From Sediminihabitans luteus (GTDB lineage Bacteria; Actinomycetota; Actinomycetes; Actinomycetales; Cellulomonadaceae), in NCBI RefSeq assembly GCF_002797595.1, contig NZ_PGFE01000007.1:62001-126000 (forward strand): a stretch of 64,000 bases of DNA, written 5' to 3'. A program made the translations under genes and the position numbers. Positions 36,518-48,254 of this stretch are shown one piece after another. Within the stretch, counting starts at the first letter, position 1; each line of letters opens with the position of its first letter. Below the pieces are notes generated by a model, which made no database searches, was not told where the DNA came from, and saw nothing but the letters and a program-made list of their open reading frames with translations.

Positions 36518-36620
36518 TGACATCTGTCATAGCAAATGGGTGACTTTCACCCATCCTGAGGCTGTGAAGAAGCTGTGATGGACGATTAAATTAGGCTCGC
36601 TTCGTAAGACCCAGCCTAAT
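36518..36620 (+). promoter_or_regulatory. AT-richer leader with three inverted repeats upstream of the CapD-like gene
   Basis: This lies in the 309-base gap between the lipoprotein and CapD-like genes. TGACA-TC-TGTCA is at 36518-36529, ATGGGTGA-CTT-TCACCCAT at 36536-36554, and ATTAGGCT (36590-36597) pairs with AGCCTAAT (36613-36620). The surrounding GATTAAATTAGG is the most AT-rich stretch nearby and may hold a -10 element. The last repeat would place a hairpin immediately before, or over, the start codon. The remainder of the gap (36325-36517) shows nothing I can name. Confidence 0.55.
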
Positions 36621-36633
36621 GAATTGGTGCCGC

Positions 36634-37698
36634 ATGTCGCTCATCCCCTTCGCCGGTCTCGTGCGCCCCGAGGATCTCCTCGGCCGGACGAGCACCCCCG
36701 TCCACGGCGACGCAGCCGTCAGGATGCTGCGAGGAGCGTCAGTCCTCGTGACGGGCGCCGGAGGTTCCATCGGCTCGGAGATCGTCAGGCAGGTCGAGGC
36801 TCTCGGCGCCTCCTCCGTGCACTTCGTCGACAACGACGAGTTCGCCCTGTACTCGCTCGAGCTCAGCTCACGGGGTTCGGCGCTCCTCGCCGAGGAGACG
36901 TATCGGCTCGCCGACATCCGCGACGTCGACCTCATGGACCGGATCTTCCGCGAGGTTCGTCCCGACGTCGTCTTCCACGCTGCCGCGCACAAGCACCTGC
37001 CGCTGCTCGAACGAGCGCCGGAGGCCGCCGTCAAGACCAACGTGTTCGGCACCGAGTCGGTCGTGCGCGCCTGCGTGCGCAACGAAGTCCCGAAGCTGGT
37101 CAACATCAGCACCGACAAGGCAGCGAACCCGACCTCCGTCCTGGGGTGGTCCAAGCGCCTGGCCGAGCAGATCGTCCGGCGCACGGCGATCGACTACGGG
37201 GTCGACTACTCCAACGTCCGGTTCGGAAACGTGCTCGGGAGCCGGGGGTCGTTCCTGCCGACGCTCGCCCACCAGATCGGGGCGGGGCTCCCCGTGCGCA
37301 TCACCGACCCCGACGTGACGCGCTACTTCATGTCCATCCCCGAGGCCGCGGGACTCGTGATCGAGGCGGGCACCCTGCGGACGGAGGGCTCGACGTTCGT
37401 CCTCGACATGGGCGAGCCGGTCCGGATCCTCCGGCTCGTCGAGGAGTACGTGCGTCTCTCGGGCCTGCCGGCGCCGACGATCGAGTTCACCGGCCTGCGC
37501 CCGGGCGAGAAGCTGCACGAGGAGCTCTTCAGCCTCGCGGAGAACCATGTCGAGACCGAGCACCCGAGGATCCGCAGGGCCAACGTCGAAGACGTCGACC
37601 TGGCGTCGCAGGTCGCCCGGCTTCGTCGACTTATCGCCGACGGCGCCTCGGCCGCGGCGATCCGCAACGTCCTCGCTCCCGCGCCCGCGGTGTCGTGA
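36634..37698 (+). CDS. Short CapD-like nucleotide-sugar dehydratase/epimerase
   Basis: A 354-residue soluble SDR protein (ATG 36634; ATG 36619 is possible, neither has a clear Shine-Dalgarno). It shows VLVTGAGGSIGSEIVRQVEAL (NAD(P) loop, residue ~42), VDNDEFALYSLE, FHAAAHKHLPLLERAPEAA, ISTDKAANPTSVLGWSKRLAEQ and LRPGEKLHEELF, as in CapD/FlaA1/WbpM UDP-GlcNAc 4,6-dehydratases. It lacks the N-terminal membrane domain of long CapD proteins. In the SVLGWSK segment a Leu stands where a catalytic Tyr or Met is usual, so activity may differ. It is coupled by GTGA to a polysaccharide glycosyltransferase. Confidence 0.85.
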   Translation: MSLIPFAGLVRPEDLLGRTSTPVHGDAAVRMLRGASVLVTGAGGSIGSEIVRQVEALGASSVHFVDNDEFALYSLELSSRGSALLAEETYRLADIRDVDLMDRIFREVRPDVVFHAAAHKHLPLLERAPEAAVKTNVFGTESVVRACVRNEVPKLVNISTDKAANPTSVLGWSKRLAEQIVRRTAIDYGVDYSNVRFGNVLGSRGSFLPTLAHQIGAGLPVRITDPDVTRYFMSIPEAAGLVIEAGTLRTEGSTFVLDMGEPVRILRLVEEYVRLSGLPAPTIEFTGLRPGEKLHEELFSLAENHVETEHPRIRRANVEDVDLASQVARLRRLIADGASAAAIRNVLAPAPAVS

Positions 37699-38849
37699 CC
37701 GGGCTCTGGCTGCTGATCCCAGCGATCTGCTGGGTCGGGATCGACCTCGTCGTCGTGGTCCGCGTGCGCCTGGCCTCGAGGGCCAGGCTCCCGCGGGTCC
37801 CACGGTTCGAGGACTTCGACGTCCTCGTGCCGATCTACGGCAACGTGCGCTACCTCGAGAACGTCGAGTACCTGACCCAGTACGGTCGTCGCGTCATCCT
37901 GTGCACCACGTCGGGAGAGAGCGACGAGTTCTACGGAGCGCTCGACGACCTCGGCCGACGGTTCGGGTTCCGGACCCACCGCGCCGACTACGTACCGCCG
38001 CCGTCGACCAAGCGGAACACCGGCGGCACCATCAGGGACCGCGTCGTCCGCTCGGCGCTCCAGCACGAGGTGCGCGCGAGCTACGTCGTGTGCATCGACG
38101 CGGACACCACGACCCCGCGACCGTTGGGTGATCTCGTCGGGATCATGCACGCCAAGGGCACGGAGATCGCCTCGGTGCGTCTCGTGACGCAGCCCGGGCT
38201 CAACTGGCTCGTCGCGCTGCAACGGTACGAGTACCGGCTCGCGATGCGGCTGCGGCTCCTGCTGCCGTGGATGCTGAGCGGCGCCTGCCACGCGGGCACC
38301 GCAGAGGCGCTCCGAGCGGTGATGCGCCGGCACTCCCTGTTCTTCCAGGGGAACGACATCGAGGTCGGCCTGCTCGCCAACGGGTACGGGTTCCGGGTCG
38401 CGCACATCCCGTTCGAGGTGCTGACGATCGTCCCCGACACGTTCAAGCCCTGGTGGCGTCAGCGCGTGGCCTGGGCGGGAGGGGAGTTCCGGCTCTTCAT
38501 CGCCAACATCCGGTTCATCCTCAAGTACCCGCTGCTGTGGATCTACGGCTCCGTGGTCGTCATCGCGCTCATCGCCGTCCGCATCTACTCGGTCGCAGGC
38601 TCGTCGCTCGGCCTCCTGGCCGTCATCGGGCTCTACTTCGCCGTGACGTACGCGGTCCATTGGCGGTATCGCGACCGGTGGCTCGTGATCGTCCCGATCT
38701 ACCGGCTCTTCTACACCCTGGTGATCGTCCCGATCGGCGTGTGGAAGTACTTCCAGATGTCGGTTCCGGAGCGGAACTACGGGGTCATCCGGCTCCCGCG
38801 GCCCCGGAACCACGACGGCCTCCCAGCGGTCCGGCACTCTCGCACCTGA
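37695..38849 (+). CDS. Membrane family 2 glycosyltransferase (cellulose/hyaluronan synthase-like)
   Basis: A 384-residue protein. GTG 37695 overlaps the CapD-like stop by 4 bases. One N-terminal membrane segment is followed by a GT-A domain: FEDFDVLVPIYGNVRYLENVEYL, VVCIDADTTTPRP (DxD near residue 135), FFQGNDIEVGLLANGYGF and WWRQRVAWAGGEFRL (processive-type QxxxW variant, near residue 256). Three or four C-terminal membrane helices follow. This is the layout of processive polysaccharide synthases. With the CapD-like enzyme as likely sugar-nucleotide supplier it may build an exopolysaccharide; the polymer is unknown. Confidence 0.85.
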   Translation: MTGLWLLIPAICWVGIDLVVVVRVRLASRARLPRVPRFEDFDVLVPIYGNVRYLENVEYLTQYGRRVILCTTSGESDEFYGALDDLGRRFGFRTHRADYVPPPSTKRNTGGTIRDRVVRSALQHEVRASYVVCIDADTTTPRPLGDLVGIMHAKGTEIASVRLVTQPGLNWLVALQRYEYRLAMRLRLLLPWMLSGACHAGTAEALRAVMRRHSLFFQGNDIEVGLLANGYGFRVAHIPFEVLTIVPDTFKPWWRQRVAWAGGEFRLFIANIRFILKYPLLWIYGSVVVIALIAVRIYSVAGSSLGLLAVIGLYFAVTYAVHWRYRDRWLVIVPIYRLFYTLVIVPIGVWKYFQMSVPERNYGVIRLPRPRNHDGLPAVRHSRT

Positions 38850-38884: not shown

Positions 38885-40567
38885 TCAGCCGCCGAGCGCC
38901 GCCGAGACCACGTCCTTCGCCTCGGCCTGCACCTGGGCGAGGTGGTCGGCCGAGACGAACGACTCGGCGTAGATCTTGTAGACGTTCTCCGTGCCGGACG
39001 GACGCGCGGCGAACCACGCGTTCTCGGTCGTGACCTTCAGCCCGCCGATCTTCGCGTCGTTGCCGGGCGCCTCGGTGAGCTTCGCGGTGATCTCCTCGCC
39101 CGCGAGCGAGGTCGCCTCGACCTGCTCGGGCGACAGCTTGGCGAGCGTCGCCTTCTCCTCGAGCGAGGCGGGCGCGTCGACGCGCGCGTACCAGGACGCG
39201 CCGTGCTCGGCCACGAGCTCCGCGTGGTGCTGCGACGGGGTGCGACCCGTCGTCGCGAGGATCTCCGAGCCGAGCAGGGCCAGCAGCAGCCCGTCCTTGT
39301 CGGTCGTCCAGACGCCGCCGTCGGTGCGCAGGAACGACGCGCCCGCCGACTCCTCGCCACCGAACCCGACCGAGCCGTCGAGCAGGCCGGGCACGAACCA
39401 CTTGAACCCGACGGGGACCTCGACCACGCGGCGTCCGAGGCTCGCCCCGACCCGGTCGATGAGCGACGACGACACGAGGGTCTTGCCGATCGCTGCGGCC
39501 TCGCCCCACCCGGGGCGTGCGCCGCCGTACAGGTACGCGATCGACACCGCGAGGAAGTGGTTGGGGTTCATGAGGCCGGCGTCGGGCGTCACGATGCCGT
39601 GCCGGTCGGAGTCCGCGTCGTTGCCCGTCGCGATGTCGAACGTGCCCGACGTCGCCGGGTCCGTCATCTTCGACACGAGCGACGCCATCGCGGACGGCGA
39701 CGAGCAGTCCATCCGGATCTTGCCGTCCCAGTCGAGCGTCATGAACGCCCAGCGCGGGTCGACCTGCGGGTTGACCACGGTCAGGTCGAGGTCGTAGCGC
39801 TCGGCGATCTCGCCCCAGTACTCGACGGCCGCACCACCGAGCGGGTCGGCGCCGATCCGGATGCCCGACGAGCGGATGGCCTCCATGTCGATCACGTTCG
39901 CGAGGTCGTCGACGTAGCTCGTGAGGAAGTCGTGCCTGCGCGTGGTCTCGGCGGCGAGCGCCTCCTCGAGCGAGACGCGGCGCACCGCGCCCACGCCCGA
40001 GCGCAGGATCTCGTTCGCGCGGTCCGCGATCCACCCCGTCGCCTCGCTCCCGGCCGGACCACCGTGCGGCGGGTTGTACTTGAAGCCACCGTCGCGGGGC
40101 GGGTTGTGCGACGGCGTCACGACGATCCCGTCCGCGAGACCCGGACCGGAGGTGCGCACGCCCTCGGACGTCGCCGCGCCGTTGTGCCGCAGGATCGCGA
40201 GCGACACCGCCGGGGTCGGGGTGAAGCTGTCCCGCGCGTCCACGTACGTCTCGACGCCCGCCGCCGCGAGCACCTCGAGCGCGGTCTGCCACGCCGGCAG
40301 GGACAGCGCGTGCGTGTCCCGCCCGATGTACAGCGGGCCGTCCGTGCCCTGGCTCGCCCGGTACTCGACGATCGCCTGCGTCGTGGCGATGATGTGCGCC
40401 TCGTTGAACGCGTGGTCGAGGCTCGACCCGCGGTGCCCCGACGTGCCGAACACGACCTTCTGGGCCGGGTCGTCGACGTCGGGCGTCAGGTCGTAGTAGG
40501 CGCCGACGACGGCGTCCACGTCGATGAGGTCGGAAGGCTGGGCGGGGGTACCGGCGCGGGGATCCAT
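38885..40567 (-). CDS. pgm: Alpha-D-glucose phosphate-specific phosphoglucomutase
   Basis: A 560-residue phosphohexomutase starting at ATG 40567. Diagnostic sites: [19 protein letters not shown], the phosphoserine loop [22 protein letters not shown], the Mg site [12 protein letters not shown], and sugar-binding [10 protein letters not shown] and [14 protein letters not shown]. The C-terminal phosphate loop is [16 protein letters not shown]. Length and motifs match the Pgm type of enterobacteria and actinobacteria. It interconverts glucose 1-phosphate and glucose 6-phosphate, linking glycolysis to glycogen and UDP-glucose. It is convergent with the glycosyltransferase gene. Confidence 0.97.
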
Positions 40568-41587: not shown

Positions 41588-42490
41588 ATGAGCAGCGTGA
41601 ACGCGGACAAGAACTCCCAGGGCTCATCCTCGACCGGTCGGCAGGCCGATGCCGAGCGACCCTCGGGAGCCCGCATCGGCAGCGCGTACGCGACGTCGAG
41701 CGTGCCGAACCCCGTGGCCCGCACGCCGCGCCCCGAGCGCACCGACCGCACGCACCGCCAGCGCGTCGCGGTCGTGATCCCTGCGAAGGACGAGTCGCGC
41801 CGTATCGCGGCGACGGTCCGCGCGGCCAAGGCCATCCCGCACGTCGACCTCGTCCTCGTGGTCGACGACGGCAGCGACGACAACACGCAGGACGTCGCGC
41901 GCGACGCCGGCGCCGTCGTCGTGCGGCACAGCCACAACCGCGGCAAGGCCGCGGCCATGGAGACGGGCGCCGCGGTCGTCGCGATGCGGGACGCCGCGGA
42001 CCGCGCCCCCCGCCTGCTGCTGTTCATCGACGGCGACCTCGCCGAGACCGCGGTCAACACGGCCCCGCTCGTGGCCCCCGTGCTCGACGGCGTCGCGGAC
42101 GTCGCGATCGCGCTGCTGCCGCCGCAGGTCGGCGCGGGCGGGCGCGGCATCGTCGTGGGCGCGGCCCGCCGCGCGATCCACTCGCTCACCGGCTGGACGC
42201 CGACCCAGCCGCTGTCGGGCATGCGCTGCCTGACCCGCCAGGCGTTCGAGGCCGCGACGCCGCTCGCGCGCGGCTGGGGTGTCGAGGCCGGCATGACGAT
42301 CGACCTGCTGCGCCAGGGTTACGTCGCGGTCGAGGTGCCGTGCGACCTGCGGCACCGGCCCTCGGGCACGGACTTCCGCGGGCAGATGCACCGTGCCGCG
42401 CAGTACCGCGACGTGCAGCTCGCCGTCGCGGCCCGCCGCACCAAGGCCGTCGCCGGCCGGGTGAGCGGCAAGAAGTCCGTCACGCGCTGA
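41588..42490 (+). CDS. Family 2 glycosyltransferase (DPM1/GpgS-like)
   Basis: A 300-residue protein from ATG 41588. GTG 41597 has a better placed AGGA Shine-Dalgarno and would remove three residues. A basic, Ser/Pro-rich N-terminus of ~55 residues precedes the GT-A domain: [59 protein letters not shown] and [12 protein letters not shown] (metal-binding DGD). [16 protein letters not shown] and [13 protein letters not shown] resemble glucosyl-3-phosphoglycerate synthase and dolichol-phosphate-mannose-type enzymes. No membrane segments are present. It converges on the large membrane protein gene with an 11-base overlap. Confidence 0.85.
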
Positions 42491-45400
42491 CGTCGCGCCC
42501 GGGGCCTGGACTGACGGCGTCCGCCGGGCCGGACGCCGCGTCGTCCCCCCGCAGGAACGCGACCAGGAGCAGCGGCACCGCGGGCACGAGCGCGATCATC
42601 GCGATCCGGATCCCGAAGTCGTTCACGAGCGACCCCGTCACGGATGCGACCCAGATCGCGAGCACGGCGGGCCGCACGAGCGGCCACGTCGCCTCGGTGC
42701 GCGCGAACCAGCGCGGCGTCAGGCGTGGCACGAACAGCACGAGCGCGACGGCGACGAGCACGGCGAGCGTGATCCACACGGGCACGCCGCCGAGCAGCGA
42801 GCGCAGCGCGAACCCGGCCTTGCGCAGCAGCGTCGACCACGCCTCGCCGTCGATCACCTGACCCACGAACCGGCCCAGGTGCGAGCGTTCGGCCGGGGGG
42901 CGCAGCCAGTCGAGCACGCCGACGGCGGCGACCGCGAGCACCCCGACCGCGCCGACGAGCACGAACCGGCGCAGGGTCACGCGGGCGCCGCTCGCGGCGA
43001 GCACGAGCACCGCGAACGTGGGGGCGAGAACGAGCCCGCCGCCGAGGTCGGCGCCGAGGGTCGGCCCGACGTCGACGTACATGGCCACGAGCCCGAGTGC
43101 GGCGACGGTCACGGCCGCGGTGCGACGGCGTCCGCGCTGCACGAGCCACTGCGCGAGCGCGGCCGAGGCGATCACGGCGGCGACCGCGTAGACGGAGAAG
43201 GTCGGGTTGCCGAACCCGTAGAACCGGGCGCCGTACGTGGGTGCGGAGCCGAGCGGGCTCGCACGGTTGAGCGGGGTGCCCACGAGGGCGTCGAGCGTGA
43301 GCATCGCGAACGTGAGGCCGGCGAGCAGCGCGGGCCCGGCCCACACGGGCCGTCGGGGGGCGAGCAGCGCGAGTCCGGCGGTCGCGGCGACCATGACGAG
43401 GGTCGAGAGCAGCAGCGCGATCCCGGCCTGGTCGAACCGCCACCACGCGGTGAGCGAGACGAGGAACGCGGCGGTGGGCACGGCGGCGACGACGAGCGCG
43501 GCGGCCTCGACGGCACGGCGTGGTCGTCCGACGAGCGGCGCGAGCCCGCGCCTGCGCCGCCACGCGCCGGCGAGCAGGCAGCCGAGCGCGAGCGCGATCC
43601 CCGCATAGAACGGAAGGTCGACGTACGACGTGTACGCGGAGCGTCGCACGACGTCGAGCGCGGTGAGGTCGGCGATCTCGTCGGCCGCGGTCACGGCGTC
43701 CGGCGGGCGGGGCGAGCCGTAGGTGATCGGGGTGTCCTCGAGCGGCGCGACGGCGTCGGTGCCGGTCGCGGCCAGGACCGTCGCGGGCACGTCGAGCAGG
43801 CGGACGACGCCGTCGGTGCGGGTCGCGGCGCTCGTGAGGTAGGCGGGGGAGTCGGGGTGCGTCACGCCGGGCCGCAGCACGGTCACGCCGAGCGCGGGCG
43901 GCTCGCCGGGGGTGTTGGCGACGTCGACGACGAGCACGGTCGTCGAGGCGGGCACCGCGTCGAGCACCTTCGCGACGACGGCGTCGATGCCGGCGACCGC
44001 CGCGGCGTGCGTCGTCGGGTCGGTCGCGTCGCCCGCGTCGACGACCGTCACGGGGCAGCCGAACGCGGAGCCGGTCGAGCCGTCGAACGCGTCGGCGAGC
44101 TCGGTGTACCGGTCGACCGTGCCCTCGCTCGTCGCGAGCGCGACCGCGGCGCCCGGCCCGACCGCCGAGGTGCACGCGACCCCGTCGAGCTGGTCTCCGA
44201 GGCGGCCCAGGTGCGCCTGGTACCGCGAGCCGTCCTGGAGCGCGACGAGGTCGTCCCACTGGTCGACGCGCTCGCCGGTGACGCTCAGGTCGGGGCAGTC
44301 CCACACGCCGTCGGTGCTCGTGGCCGTCGCGTCGGCGAGAACGCCGGCCGAGATCGCGAGCCAGCCGCCCTCGGGGCACCGCGCCGCGGTGCCGGTGGGC
44401 AGCGAGTCGCCCGCCGCGCCCGCGTCCTCGGAGAGCATCGACCGGATCGTCGGGGCCAGGCCCGTGCTCACGTCGTCCCACCGCACGCCCGCGGTGCCGA
44501 CCACCACGAGGTCGCCCCCGGCGGGCACGGCGGCCTGCTCGTCGGACGGCGCGACCTGGGTCCCGGCGCCCGTGGGCCCGGTCCCGGGCGCGACGAGCGT
44601 CGCGAGCAGCATGGTGACGAGCAGCCCGCCGGCGAGGGTCACGAGGGTGCCCGTCATGGAGCGGACGCCGGGCGCTGTGGTCGGGAGAACACGCGGTGTC
44701 CCCGCCGGGCCGGCCGGGGTCGCGTCGTCCACGAGCGACGGCACGAGCATCGCGACCGCCACGACCAGGACGAAGCCGCCGACCACGATGCCCGAGTCGT
44801 TGAGCACCGACCCGACGACGCCGGTGGTCGCGAGCGCGAGGGCGAGCGGCCGCAGCAGGGGCCAGCGGCGGTACGCCTCGGCGAGCTCGGTCATCCGCAG
44901 CCGCTCGGGTCGCAGCACCGCCCAGACGGCGAGCACGAGCAGCGGCAGCACGACCACGCCCGCCGGGTTCGCGACGGTCGACCACGCGCCCGCGGCCTTG
45001 CTCGCGACGAGCGACAGCGCCTCGCCGTCGACGATCCGCTGCACGAACCCGCCGAGGTGCGAGGGCTCGCCCGGCCCGGCCCAGTCGAGCACCGCCACGG
45101 TGCCGACCACGAGGAGCGTCACGAGGGCGAGCGCAGCGACCCGACGCCAGGTGATCCGCACGCCCGCGACGAGCAGCACGAGCACCGCGAACCCGGGCAC
45201 GAGCGCGAGGATCCCGCCGAAGTCGGCACCGAACTGCGGCCCCCCGTCGATCACGGTCGTGACCACCCCGACCGCCGCGATCACGACGAGGGCCCAGCTG
45301 CGGCGTCCGGCACGCGCGAGCGACGACGCGAGCCCGGCCGCGAGCGTGAGCCCGGCGACCGCGAAGATCGCGAACGTCATGTTGTTGAACCCGTAGAACC

Positions 45401-47051
45401 GCGCCCCCTGCGCGAGCGACGAACCCAGGAGCGACCCCTGCTGGAGGGTCGTCCCGGTCAGCCCGTCGATCACGAGGACGAGCCAGGTGATGCCGGCGAC
45501 GCAGGTCGCGAGCCGCCACGGGCTCGCGGGGAGCACGCGGCTCAGGAGCCACGACGCGACCGCGACAGCGGCCGTCGCGACGCAGATCGCGAGCACGAGC
45601 ACGAACGTCGGGGCGGGCAGCACCCACCACCGGCTGAGGGCCGCGAGCGGCGTGCCCACGGGCGCGGACGCGACCACGAGCGTCGTCGCGACGAGCAGAC
45701 GACGCCCGCCCGGCCCGGGCGGGAGCACCGCGGCGCCGTGACGGGCCGCGCGCCGTCGGGCCCACAGCGCGCCGACCACGCACCCGGCGAGCGCGAGGCC
45801 GAGGATCGTCACGAGCACGGGCATGAGCTGCGGGATCGTCGTGGTCAGCACGTTGACGTAGCGCCGGTTCTCGACCGTCCCGCTGACGTCGCTGCGCCGC
45901 TCCTCGCCGTCCTCGAGTGGGTGGCCGTCGAGCTGCGCGGTCTCGACCCCGGCGTCGGCCGCGATGGTCGCCGTCAGGTCCGCGAGCTGCACGAGCCCGG
46001 GGCGTCGCGTGCCCTCCGAGGTCGACCAGCGGGCGTCGTCCTCGCCGCTCGTCCAGTCGACCACGACCTGCAGGTCGGGCTGCGCGAGCGGTGCGCCCGT
46101 GACCCCCGCGACCAGCACGCGCGACCCCGGGGGCAGCGCCGCGCGCAGCCGCACGAGCGTCGCGTCGAGCGAGTCGAGCGCCGCCATGCGCTCGGGCCCG
46201 GCCTCGGGCAGGTCGCCGAGGTCGACCACGAGGGTGCCGCACGAGGCGATCTGGTGGTCGTCGACCTCCGCGAGGTCGGCCGCGTACCGGTCGACGTGCC
46301 CGGTCGCGTCGGCGAGCATGACCGCCGCGCCCGGCCCGACCGCGGTGCGGCACGCGTCGGCCGTCGCGAACGACTCGCCGAGCTCGCCCGGCAGCACCGC
46401 CGTCTCGGTCTCGAGGATGCCCTCCTCGGCGGGCCGTGTGAGCGCCGTCCACCCGGGCACGGTCACGGGACCGGGCTGCTGCGCGGGCGCCGTGACCTGG
46501 GGCACGTCGAGGCAGGTCGCGGGCGCGGCGACGTCGTCGGTCGCGTCGTCGGACGGCTCGACCGTCTGCTCGGGCACGGCCTGCGTGCGGCGGCCCGCCG
46601 AGAGCGTGAGCCACGCGTCGAGCGGGCAGGTGAGCGGGTTGGCCGTGCGCACGTTGATCGACGCGACCGAGCCCTGGTCGATCATGCGCCACAGGCTCGG
46701 GGTGGTGGACGCCGAGACGTCGTTCCAGCGTAGGCCGCCGAGCCCGACCAGGACGGTCGGGGGCTCGACCTCGAAGTCCTCGGCGGTCGGGGCGTCCGTG
46801 CTGGGGGTGCCCGTGGCCGGTGTGCCCGTGGCCGACGTTTCCGTCGGCGCCGTCGTCGGGCCGGCCGTCGTCGGGCCGGCCGTCGCCGCGCGGGCCTGGC
46901 CCGCGGCGAGCAGCGCGCCCACGGGCGCGACGGCGAGCGCGAGCAGCAGGCCCACGAGCAGCGCCACGAGCGCCCGGGGGAACCCCGGGAGCGACGTCCC
47001 GACGCGGGGTCGGGGCGCGGGCGGGCTCGTCGGCGCGGCGGGGCTCGTCAC
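42480..47051 (-). CDS. 1523-residue membrane protein with internal tandem duplication
   Basis: GTG start at 47051. One membrane anchor (residues ~25-50) leads to an outer domain (about 95-395), then about 11 membrane helices. The whole pattern then repeats from about residue 825. Paired motifs, first and second half: GGLRWNDVS/AGVRWDDVS; CPLDAWLTLSAG/CPEGGWLAISAG; AVGPGAAVMLA/AVGPGAAVALA; VDRYAADLA/VDRYTELAD; ARFYGFNNMTF/ARFYGFGNPTF; FGADFGGILAL/LGADLGGGLVL; SVLNDSGIVV/SLVNDFGIRI. The offset is 725-746 residues. The outer domains vaguely resemble alkaline-phosphatase-like folds but lack clear catalytic residues. It follows a lipid kinase gene by 26 bases on the same strand. Function unknown. 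Confidence 0.9.
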   Translation of the reverse strand: MTSPAAPTSPPAPRPRVGTSLPGFPRALVALLVGLLLALAVAPVGALLAAGQARAATAGPTTAGPTTAPTETSATGTPATGTPSTDAPTAEDFEVEPPTVLVGLGGLRWNDVSASTTPSLWRMIDQGSVASINVRTANPLTCPLDAWLTLSAGRRTQAVPEQTVEPSDDATDDVAAPATCLDVPQVTAPAQQPGPVTVPGWTALTRPAEEGILETETAVLPGELGESFATADACRTAVGPGAAVMLADATGHVDRYAADLAEVDDHQIASCGTLVVDLGDLPEAGPERMAALDSLDATLVRLRAALPPGSRVLVAGVTGAPLAQPDLQVVVDWTSGEDDARWSTSEGTRRPGLVQLADLTATIAADAGVETAQLDGHPLEDGEERRSDVSGTVENRRYVNVLTTTIPQLMPVLVTILGLALAGCVVGALWARRRAARHGAAVLPPGPGGRRLLVATTLVVASAPVGTPLAALSRWWVLPAPTFVLVLAICVATAAVAVASWLLSRVLPASPWRLATCVAGITWLVLVIDGLTGTTLQQGSLLGSSLAQGARFYGFNNMTFAIFAVAGLTLAAGLASSLARAGRRSWALVVIAAVGVVTTVIDGGPQFGADFGGILALVPGFAVLVLLVAGVRITWRRVAALALVTLLVVGTVAVLDWAGPGEPSHLGGFVQRIVDGEALSLVASKAAGAWSTVANPAGVVVLPLLVLAVWAVLRPERLRMTELAEAYRRWPLLRPLALALATTGVVGSVLNDSGIVVGGFVLVVAVAMLVPSLVDDATPAGPAGTPRVLPTTAPGVRSMTGTLVTLAGGLLVTMLLATLVAPGTGPTGAGTQVAPSDEQAAVPAGGDLVVVGTAGVRWDDVSTGLAPTIRSMLSEDAGAAGDSLPTGTAARCPEGGWLAISAGVLADATATSTDGVWDCPDLSVTGERVDQWDDLVALQDGSRYQAHLGRLGDQLDGVACTSAVGPGAAVALATSEGTVDRYTELADAFDGSTGSAFGCPVTVVDAGDATDPTTHAAAVAGIDAVVAKVLDAVPASTTVLVVDVANTPGEPPALGVTVLRPGVTHPDSPAYLTSAATRTDGVVRLLDVPATVLAATGTDAVAPLEDTPITYGSPRPPDAVTAADEIADLTALDVVRRSAYTSYVDLPFYAGIALALGCLLAGAWRRRRGLAPLVGRPRRAVEAAALVVAAVPTAAFLVSLTAWWRFDQAGIALLLSTLVMVAATAGLALLAPRRPVWAGPALLAGLTFAMLTLDALVGTPLNRASPLGSAPTYGARFYGFGNPTFSVYAVAAVIASAALAQWLVQRGRRRTAAVTVAALGLVAMYVDVGPTLGADLGGGLVLAPTFAVLVLAASGARVTLRRFVLVGAVGVLAVAAVGVLDWLRPPAERSHLGRFVGQVIDGEAWSTLLRKAGFALRSLLGGVPVWITLAVLVAVALVLFVPRLTPRWFARTEATWPLVRPAVLAIWVASVTGSLVNDFGIRIAMIALVPAVPLLLVAFLRGDDAASGPADAVSPGPGRDVSA

Positions 47052-47077: not shown

Positions 47078-48190
47078 TCAGGCGGTCCGCACCACGAGCG
47101 CCTTCGGCTCGACCCAGGCCTCGAGCTCGGCCGCGCGCCCGATCACGTCGCCGTCGACCTGCGCCTGCTCGCCGCCCTCGACCTCGACGACGACGCGCTG
47201 CGCGCGCGTGTGGTCGATGCGGCCGATCTTCGCGGGCAGGTCGTTGCGCATCCCGAACCCCTGCATCACGACCTCGCCGAACAGCTGCGCCCACCCCGCG
47301 AGGCCGCCGCGCGTGTCGATCGCGGCGAGGTCGAGGATCCCGTCGTCGATCACCGCGTCGGGGATGAGGTTGATGCCGCCGGGCAGGCGGCCGCAGTTGC
47401 CGATGAGGATGGTGCGCAGCCGTGCGACGACGGTCCCGCGGTCGTCGACCGTGATGCGGGTGCGCATGCGCTTGCCGTGCAGGTGCTTGACGCCGGCCAC
47501 GAAGTACGCGACCCAGCCCATCTTTGCCTTGAGGTCGTCGTCGGCGTCCGCGACCATCGCGGCGTCGAACCCGAGGCCCGCGATGACGAGGAAGATGTGC
47601 TTGTCGCCCTCGCCGCCCGGCGTCGCGCCGTCGTCGGCGGCGTCGCCGGGCTCGTCGGCCCAGCGCGTCACGCGCGCCCACCCCACGTCGATCGTGCGGT
47701 CGACCCCGCCCACGAGGATCCGCAGCGCCGCGGCGCGGTCGCCCACGGGGATGTCGAGGTTGCGCGCGAGCAGGTTGCCGGTGCCCGACGGCACGAGGGC
47801 CATGGGCACGCCCGTGCCCGTGAGGGCCTCGGCGACCGCGCGCACGGTCCCGTCGCCGCCGACCGCGACGACGACGTCCGCGCCGCGCTCGATCGCCTCG
47901 CGGGCCTGGCCCACGCCCGGGTCGTCGACGGTCGTCTCGATCCACAGCGGGTCGGGCAGGGCCGCCTCGCGGCACGCGCGGCGGGCGACCTCCTCGAAGG
48001 CCGCGACCTCGGGCTTGGAGGGGTTCGCGACGAACGCCACGAGGTCGCGGTGCGTGTCGACGTCCGCGGCGGGGGAGACCGGGTCGGCGGGGCCGCTCGT
48101 GTGCAGCCTCCGGTAGATCAGCAGTGCCACCACGAGAGCCGCCGCAGCGAGCACGACGGCGACGATCCCCAACCACAGTTCCCAGGTCAT
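47078..48190 (-). CDS. Diacylglycerol kinase-family lipid kinase (YegS/DgkB-like)
   Basis: A 370-residue protein starting at ATG 48190 (a TTG lies 9 bases upstream). An N-terminal membrane helix ([22 protein letters not shown]) precedes the DAGK catalytic domain: [30 protein letters not shown] (GGDGT ATP site), [17 protein letters not shown] and the C-terminal beta domain with [25 protein letters not shown]. It phosphorylates a lipid such as diacylglycerol at the membrane. It is followed closely by the duplicated membrane protein gene and is divergent from serS. Confidence 0.92.
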
Positions 48191-48254
48191 GGCCGTCAAC
48201 CTAACGGGCGGACCACCTGCACGCGCCCCGGGCGTGGTTCGTTACGCTGCAGGG

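Follow-up and report, generated by a model that had tools for sequence, protein, structure and literature searches.

A two-module membrane protein of Sediminihabitans luteus, formed by tandem duplication and fusion, with a phosphatase-like outer domain in each half

Glycosylphosphatidylinositol (GPI) ethanolamine-phosphate transferases of the PIG-N/O/G type are built from an anchor helix, a phosphatase-like outer domain and many helices. Phosphotransferases of the LtaS/EptA/BcsG types also combine membrane helices with an outer domain of phosphatase fold; in these, the helices precede that domain and the enzymes have an active Thr. Here, we describe a gene at positions 42480-47051 of a 64,000-nucleotide stretch of the Sediminihabitans luteus genome (contig NZ_PGFE01000007.1, positions 62,001 to 126,000; hereafter the window). 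It encodes a membrane protein of 1523 residues that is a tandem duplication and fusion of one module. We tentatively read the module as a membrane protein of envelope-glycan assembly that would act as a dimer and form a built-in pseudo-dimer in the fused chain, a reading that falls a little short of being probable.

In our structure models, the module has the same order of parts as the PIG-N/O/G enzymes. It differs from them in that its outer domain (the cap) is without the usual catalytic residues and in that it is here duplicated and fused. The LtaS/EptA/BcsG types are set apart by their helices-first order and active Thr, and BcsG and EptC were weak in Foldseek (E 0.14 and 0.33). In both halves the outer-domain fold is like that of the alkaline phosphatase superfamily (NPP, sulfatase, phosphoglycerate mutase, phosphopentomutase). 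Unlike these enzymes, the module has neither the first metal Asp nor the nucleophile motif nor the His of the SDHG loop, and it is joined to about 12 membrane helices. Single-module relatives in Actinomycetota, such as that of Streptosporangium saharense (L007), share the same module and have a relative of a GT2-family glycosyltransferase close by, but have a single module in each chain or occur as two neighbouring genes.

No curated family names the protein: the full sequence gave only matches far under the cut-off in Pfam and NCBIfam and nothing in a sequence search of the PDB, and the members that we scanned yielded no family name beyond weak matches, the best to Phosphodiest and SGSH_C. 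Among titles and abstract openings, we recognised no published work on the double protein, its architecture or its neighbourhood.

An internal tandem duplication

42480..47051, minus strand: two-module membrane protein gene (1523 aa, stop included)

Local alignment of residues 1-790 with residues 791-1523 paired 705 residues, of which 275 were identical (39%), at an offset of 725. The half-versus-half BLOSUM62 score was 907, compared to a maximum of 112 in 200 whole shuffles and of 199 in 200 shuffles within 20-residue blocks, which keep the local hydrophobicity. Exact 5-mer repeats concentrated at offsets 725 (six) and 726 (four), close to the constant spacing of 725-746 residues at which a first-pass annotation of this DNA had seen motifs recur; the off-diagonal signal that it had named as a check was found at offset 725. 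The outer domains of the two halves are identical at 89 of 283 residues (31%) and the membrane domains at 140 of 355 (39%). The halves are thus alignable along their length, at a near-constant offset and beyond chance, and the proposal of a giant membrane protein made by tandem duplication and fusion stood up to both kinds of shuffle.

The gene starts with GTG, three codons downstream of an in-frame stop, and the double gene is present in one copy in the 3.42-Mb genome. Two long open frames overlap it (42879-46733, plus strand, 1284 aa; 42319-46692, minus strand, 1457 aa); most probably they only mirror the GC-rich coding frame. A search with a consensus that may not fit such a GC-rich genome found no promoter- or terminator-like sites.

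A phosphatase-like cap over a conserved membrane domain

We modelled each half separately with AlphaFold2 from ten-row alignments (mean pLDDT 72.8 for the C half and 72.7 for the N half). In both models, an N-terminal anchor helix leads into an alpha/beta outer domain, which is followed by 12 long helices interspersed with short ones. An outer domain followed by membrane helices in each half had been foreseen in the first-pass annotation, with a count of about 11 helices that the models revise. The parts are placed as follows:

46887..46961, minus strand: N module anchor helix, about residues 31-55 (predicted helix, low confidence)
45903..46769, minus strand: N module outer domain, alkaline-phosphatase-like fold without the usual catalytic residues, about residues 95-383 (model, profile alignment)
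44724..45887, minus strand: N module membrane domain, about 12 helices, about residues 389-776 (model, conservation)
44601..44657, minus strand: C module anchor helix, about residues 799-817 (predicted helix, low confidence)
43710..44525, minus strand: C module outer domain, fold as in the N module, about residues 843-1114 (model, alignment)
42534..43697, minus strand: C module membrane domain, about residues 1119-1506 (model, conservation)

Structural alignment matched the outer domain of the C half to the sulfatase 6hr5 (Z 17.3, 229 aligned residues, 3.3 Å) and to Xac NPP (Z 16.9), and that of the N half to the phosphoglycerate mutase 4nwj (Z 17.2, 212 aligned, 3.1 Å). Both outer domains thus carry the core alpha/beta fold of the alkaline phosphatase superfamily, with top Z scores of about 17 over 212-229 residues. 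Foldseek alone gave a best E of 0.034 for the C half. Since Foldseek matches were weak (E of at least 0.034), the fold assignment rests on VIA alignments, the profile alignment with Phosphodiest proteins and weak sequence matches. Profiles of all modules or of the singles aligned with Phosphodiest proteins at E of about 2e-5 (probability 76-78), the template being the nine of 12 loci that passed a motif filter. Phosphodiest was also matched weakly in three of 16 single modules (best E 0.00046), and a profile of these 16 singles reached Xac NPP in the PDB (8.9e-5, about 65 positions). In a PF01663 search of 19 genomes, the module loci were not among the matches listed.

The usual catalytic residues of this fold were not recovered. 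Profile alignment of the singles with the nine Phosphodiest proteins put P, G, S, A, T or R opposite the metal-binding Asp of the VDG motif and CPxDGW opposite the PSTT nucleophile loop. The first metal Asp occurs in none of 25 singles and in one of seven distant modules, and the His of the SDHG-like loop in none of 25 singles; residue columns were counted by their six commonest letters, so that one of 19 C halves is not accounted for at the first metal position. No metal Asp/His set with a Thr, Ser or Cys nucleophile, as in a catalytic alkaline phosphatase, was therefore found. Given that the usual metal and nucleophile residues are missing, the outer domains of both halves are probably not catalytic. 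The 'enzyme-like' units of the first-pass annotation are borne out in the fold of the outer domain but not in its usual catalytic residues. A Cys pair (C46 and C72, numbered as in a reference single) is retained and may form a disulfide.

These counts bear on whether the module could be an active phosphotransferase, akin to the GPI ethanolamine-phosphate transferases or NPP, with phospho transfer by an altered outer-domain site. Besides the shared order of parts, two acidic residues speak for it: 24 of 25 singles and both halves retain the VVD-strand Asp, and 24 of 25 singles have an Asp in the SDHG-like loop. This second Asp, however, is missing from all 19 C halves, from both halves of the window protein and from five of the 16 N halves that have a residue at the position. 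PigN was not among the matches listed for the 1523-aa protein (E up to 5) or for 16 single modules (E up to 1). With the first metal Asp and the SDHG-like His absent from all 25 singles, we consider such an enzyme quite improbable.

The membrane domain presents a different picture. Positions that are the same in at least 85% of 25 singles were taken as conserved (L028 was dropped from these counts as a repeat of L003), which gave 116 positions, 47 in the outer domain and 69 in the membrane domain. The N half keeps 69 of the 116 and the C half 71, with 56 kept by both. For the outer positions the corresponding numbers are 29, 31 and 26, and for the membrane positions 40, 40 and 30. The membrane set common to both halves includes, in the reference single, D425, R447, Y449, N453, D506, D552, H562, K582, N649 and D650. 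In the window protein, the residues at single-conserved positions are:

N module: D529, R551, Y553, N557, D610, D656, H665, K685, N751, D752
C module: D1254, R1276, Y1278, N1282, D1335, D1381, H1391, K1411, N1477, D1478

R447, H562, N649 and D650 are also kept in all seven distant modules. By this measure, both halves appear to have kept a working membrane site. A seemingly dead cap together with conservation of the membrane site suggests that the work is done in the membrane part; the cap might bind or gate.

A membrane site of this kind could be catalytic or could serve transport. In a transporter, the membrane domain would move a lipid-linked or small substrate, the cap would be a lid or docking surface, and the halves would be two transport units. 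About 12 helices per half and conserved charged membrane residues fit such a protein, and two-fold duplication is common in transporters. Against this, the matches listed for the double protein and for 16 single modules include no transporter family, and a MurJ-like flippase already adjoins the module in many distant lineages. We regard a transporter as rather unlikely. For the helices alone, no convincing row appeared in the Foldseek and structure-alignment lists, which the outer domain fills.

One fusion and exchange at a single slot

Relatives of the module were present in all of the 81 family genomes sampled, counting the window's own, in 63 of 99 of the order and in 71 of 198 of the phylum. 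None of the 12 class-mates outside the order in the phylum table carries one. Such a wide presence without a family name points to an uncharacterised envelope step. Architectures in the family, counted by hand from the match table, were 36 doubles, 41 singles (G113 and G155 being fragments) and four genomes, all of genus g67, with a C-type half only. In 31 of the 36 doubles, both halves lie in frames of at least 1400 aa, not every one of which was checked; G118, G056, G020 and G131 show one stop inside the match. The other five are frame-broken, at a contig edge or truncated (G002, G121, G125, G157 and G138). Antribacter, Isoptericola, two Oerskovia (one double running into a contig end), Paraoerskovia and further relatives also carry the double. 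In a record of Paraoerskovia sediminicola (L005, 8743-13859), the double gene is scattered over several frames, either by sequencing error or by decay; the matching genome, G002, is 87% complete.

Relatives with one module or two unfused genes, which the first-pass annotation had suggested looking for, were both found. Unfused tandem gene pairs occur in G106, G088, four g16 genomes and, in another class, G272/G293. One genome (G138) carries a C-terminally shortened double and a single side by side; at this locus (L093, 8702-14542) the two genes converge and overlap at their 3' ends, a state that resembles a replacement in progress.

A tree of 87 modules placed the 19 N halves in a clade of their own and likewise the C halves, each with a support of 1.00 and the two clades as sisters (1.00). 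IQ-TREE analysis of 59 of these modules (14 N; 16 C, including one C-only), from which distant, redundant and fragmentary ones as well as L062 and L069 were excluded, gave a bootstrap of 100 each for N, C and N+C. Because the N and C clades are each monophyletic and sisters of one another, the fusion has a single origin among the doubles placed in these trees. A recent or local duplication is ruled out, as the N and C clades are common to many genera. The tandem pairs of G106 and G088 are sister copies (bootstrap 94 and 100), which supports independent duplications in these two. The pair of G018 formed no clade in IQ-TREE, although FastTree grouped the two. The module of g67 falls within the C clade, indicating that the N half was lost there.

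Doubles and singles have also replaced each other at the same place. In a neighbour-gene tree built on SerS, GT2, the lipid kinase and phosphoglucomutase/phosphomannomutase (PGM), G003 is sister to the window (0.93) within the genus (1.00). Its module, in contrast, is a single that groups with that of G100 (99, IQ-TREE) while having the same neighbours as the double, so that a foreign single replaced the double there. In G159, G072 and G152, doubles sit at the single's place, inverted relative to their neighbours; in the neighbour tree, G159 stands beside the single-bearing G011 (1.00) and G072 and G152 beside G164 (0.55, weak). The exchanges themselves are more certain than the direction that each one took, because support is low at some nodes of this tree. 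Such exchange at one slot is most simply read as a sign that the double and the single are equivalent in function.

The same evidence weighs on the proposal, raised in the first-pass annotation, that the diverged halves have different roles. The halves have indeed diverged, and with a division of labour both would be needed and the fusion would have made a new two-step machine. Ten single-conserved membrane positions are kept by the N half only and ten by the C half only, and the NDS motif of the singles is NDF or NDY in all 17 C halves with the residue present, whereas N halves have NDS in 15 of 17 and NDT in two. Nevertheless, the halves keep nearly equal numbers of single-conserved positions (69 and 71 of 116), all four genomes of g67 live with a single C-type module, and doubles and singles have swapped places as described above. 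Specialised halves therefore appear doubtful to us. We favour instead two modules acting together in the manner of a dimer, to which the repeated origin of pairing points: the modules would probably pair as two copies of the single, as a tandem gene pair or as the two halves of the fused chain. Genomes with a single, a double, a C-type half only or both forms provide a natural series on whether two membrane units must act together.

Gene neighbourhoods and the proposed role in envelope glycans

In the window, the double gene has the following neighbours:

47078..48199, minus strand: lipid kinase, diacylglycerol-kinase/YegS-like (PF00781 1e-18, YegS_C 4e-12)
41588..42490, plus strand: GT2-family glycosyltransferase, GpgS/AglJ/PpgS-like (family matches)
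38885..40528, minus strand: PGM, a more remote neighbour (family match)

The lipid kinase lies 26 bases upstream on the same strand, and the GT2 gene is convergent with the double gene and overlaps its 3' end by 11 bases. The GT2 protein resembles GpgS, AglJ and PpgS, each under the curated cut-off, as well as GpgS-type structures.

We compared the neighbourhoods of 63 loci (38 non-distant and 25 distant), taking the best tblastn match per fetched stretch. The distant loci were picked by us from 67 matching genomes outside the order, and L058, which repeats L005, was dropped. For some neighbour queries the start position was approximate, and one glycosyltransferase query (at about 37.7 kb) was in the wrong frame and uninformative. 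In the non-distant loci, the order is SerS, lipid kinase, sometimes prephenate dehydratase and GDT1, the module, then GT2 and PGM. A GT2 relative was found in 34 of the 63 loci, 32 of them non-distant and two distant; the non-distant loci without it are L003, L004 (contig end), L071, L102, L103 and L104. PGM relatives occur in 15 of 63 stretches. Four loci have GT87-type genes, located between the module and GT2/PGM in the non-distant set. Two of these are mannosyltransferase-like, resembling PimE (165 bits against a cut-off of 413; PRK13375, which we take to be PimE) and, weakly, MptA/MptB.

The distant loci follow another layout, namely SteA, MctB, a MurJ-like gene, the module and PyrG, with MurJ-like genes in 15 of the 25, PyrG in 16 and SteA in 13. 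In L101 and L136, the MurJ-like gene and the module remain together despite an inverted PyrG; the MurJ-like protein of L101 scored 154 bits, under the curated MurJ cut-off of 236. Two loci from outside the window's class (L126 and L138) have a GT2 relative, the module, SteA and PyrG together and so join both gene settings, although their GT2 relatives, 44-45% identical, may be paralogues. The lipid kinase, in which the first-pass annotation had seen a hint at a lipid-linked envelope process, does adjoin the gene and has relatives in 31 of 38 non-distant stretches but in none of the 25 distant ones. It is thus a regional neighbour rather than a key partner, and GT2 and the MurJ-like protein are better clues to function.

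The company of GT2, GT87, MurJ-like and PGM genes points to lipid-linked envelope glycans. In the envelope-glycan reading introduced above, the module combines a membrane domain (about 12 helices and a conserved polar site) with an alkaline-phosphatase-like cap that lies over it on the cell's outer side and is probably non-catalytic, and it would handle a lipid-linked sugar or glycan that is probably made by the neighbouring GT2 enzyme. In distant lineages, the nearby MurJ-like flippase would move the lipid-linked glycan across the membrane. The membrane site could then carry out a transfer, polymerisation or hand-over step. A more specific version, in which this actinobacterial family has a dead phosphatase cap over a 12-helix catalytic core that completes the lipid-linked glycan from the MurJ-like flippase as an obligate dimer, seems unlikely in that full form. 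Obligate dimerisation, if true, would explain the repeated tandem duplication, the one fusion and the swapping of fused and unfused forms at one slot.

Several observations weigh against the envelope-glycan reading. Its glycan part derives from gene neighbourhood, and nine of the 25 distant loci (L106, L125, L127-L132 and L137) show none of the tested neighbours. No MurJ-like match was found in the 38 non-distant stretches, and the distant loci share ancestry, so that the 15 MurJ-like genes among 25 are not independent. Moreover, the window's own genome has a SteA, MurJ-like and PyrG row without the module (contig C2, about 804-811 kb, L142). The membrane set varies among 12 modules from unfused tandem pairs (D506 to K in eight, N649 to T in four, D425 to E in two), and the four C-only genomes and the singles indicate that the fusion is dispensable. 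As for the cap, the half models are of moderate confidence (pLDDT of about 73), the N halves by themselves align with the Phosphodiest template over 31 columns only and the C halves over 25, and a non-standard active site may exist there.

The distant layout also raises the possibility that the module is a cell-division or cell-separation factor that belongs with SteA/MctB(SteB)-type genes and not with glycan synthesis. The genes steA and steB are reported to function in cell separation in Corynebacterineae (PMC6705760). The SteA relatives in 13 of the 63 loci all belong to the distant set, while in the window's genome and order the module stands away from SteA and near GT2 and, in a few loci, GT87. 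A role of this kind is very unlikely in our estimation, and an envelope-glycan protein remains our preferred reading.

Further along the window, at 36619-38849 on the plus strand, a nucleotide-sugar dehydratase-like frame is followed by a glycosyltransferase-like frame, as judged from translation, which places more polysaccharide-type genes close to the double-gene locus.

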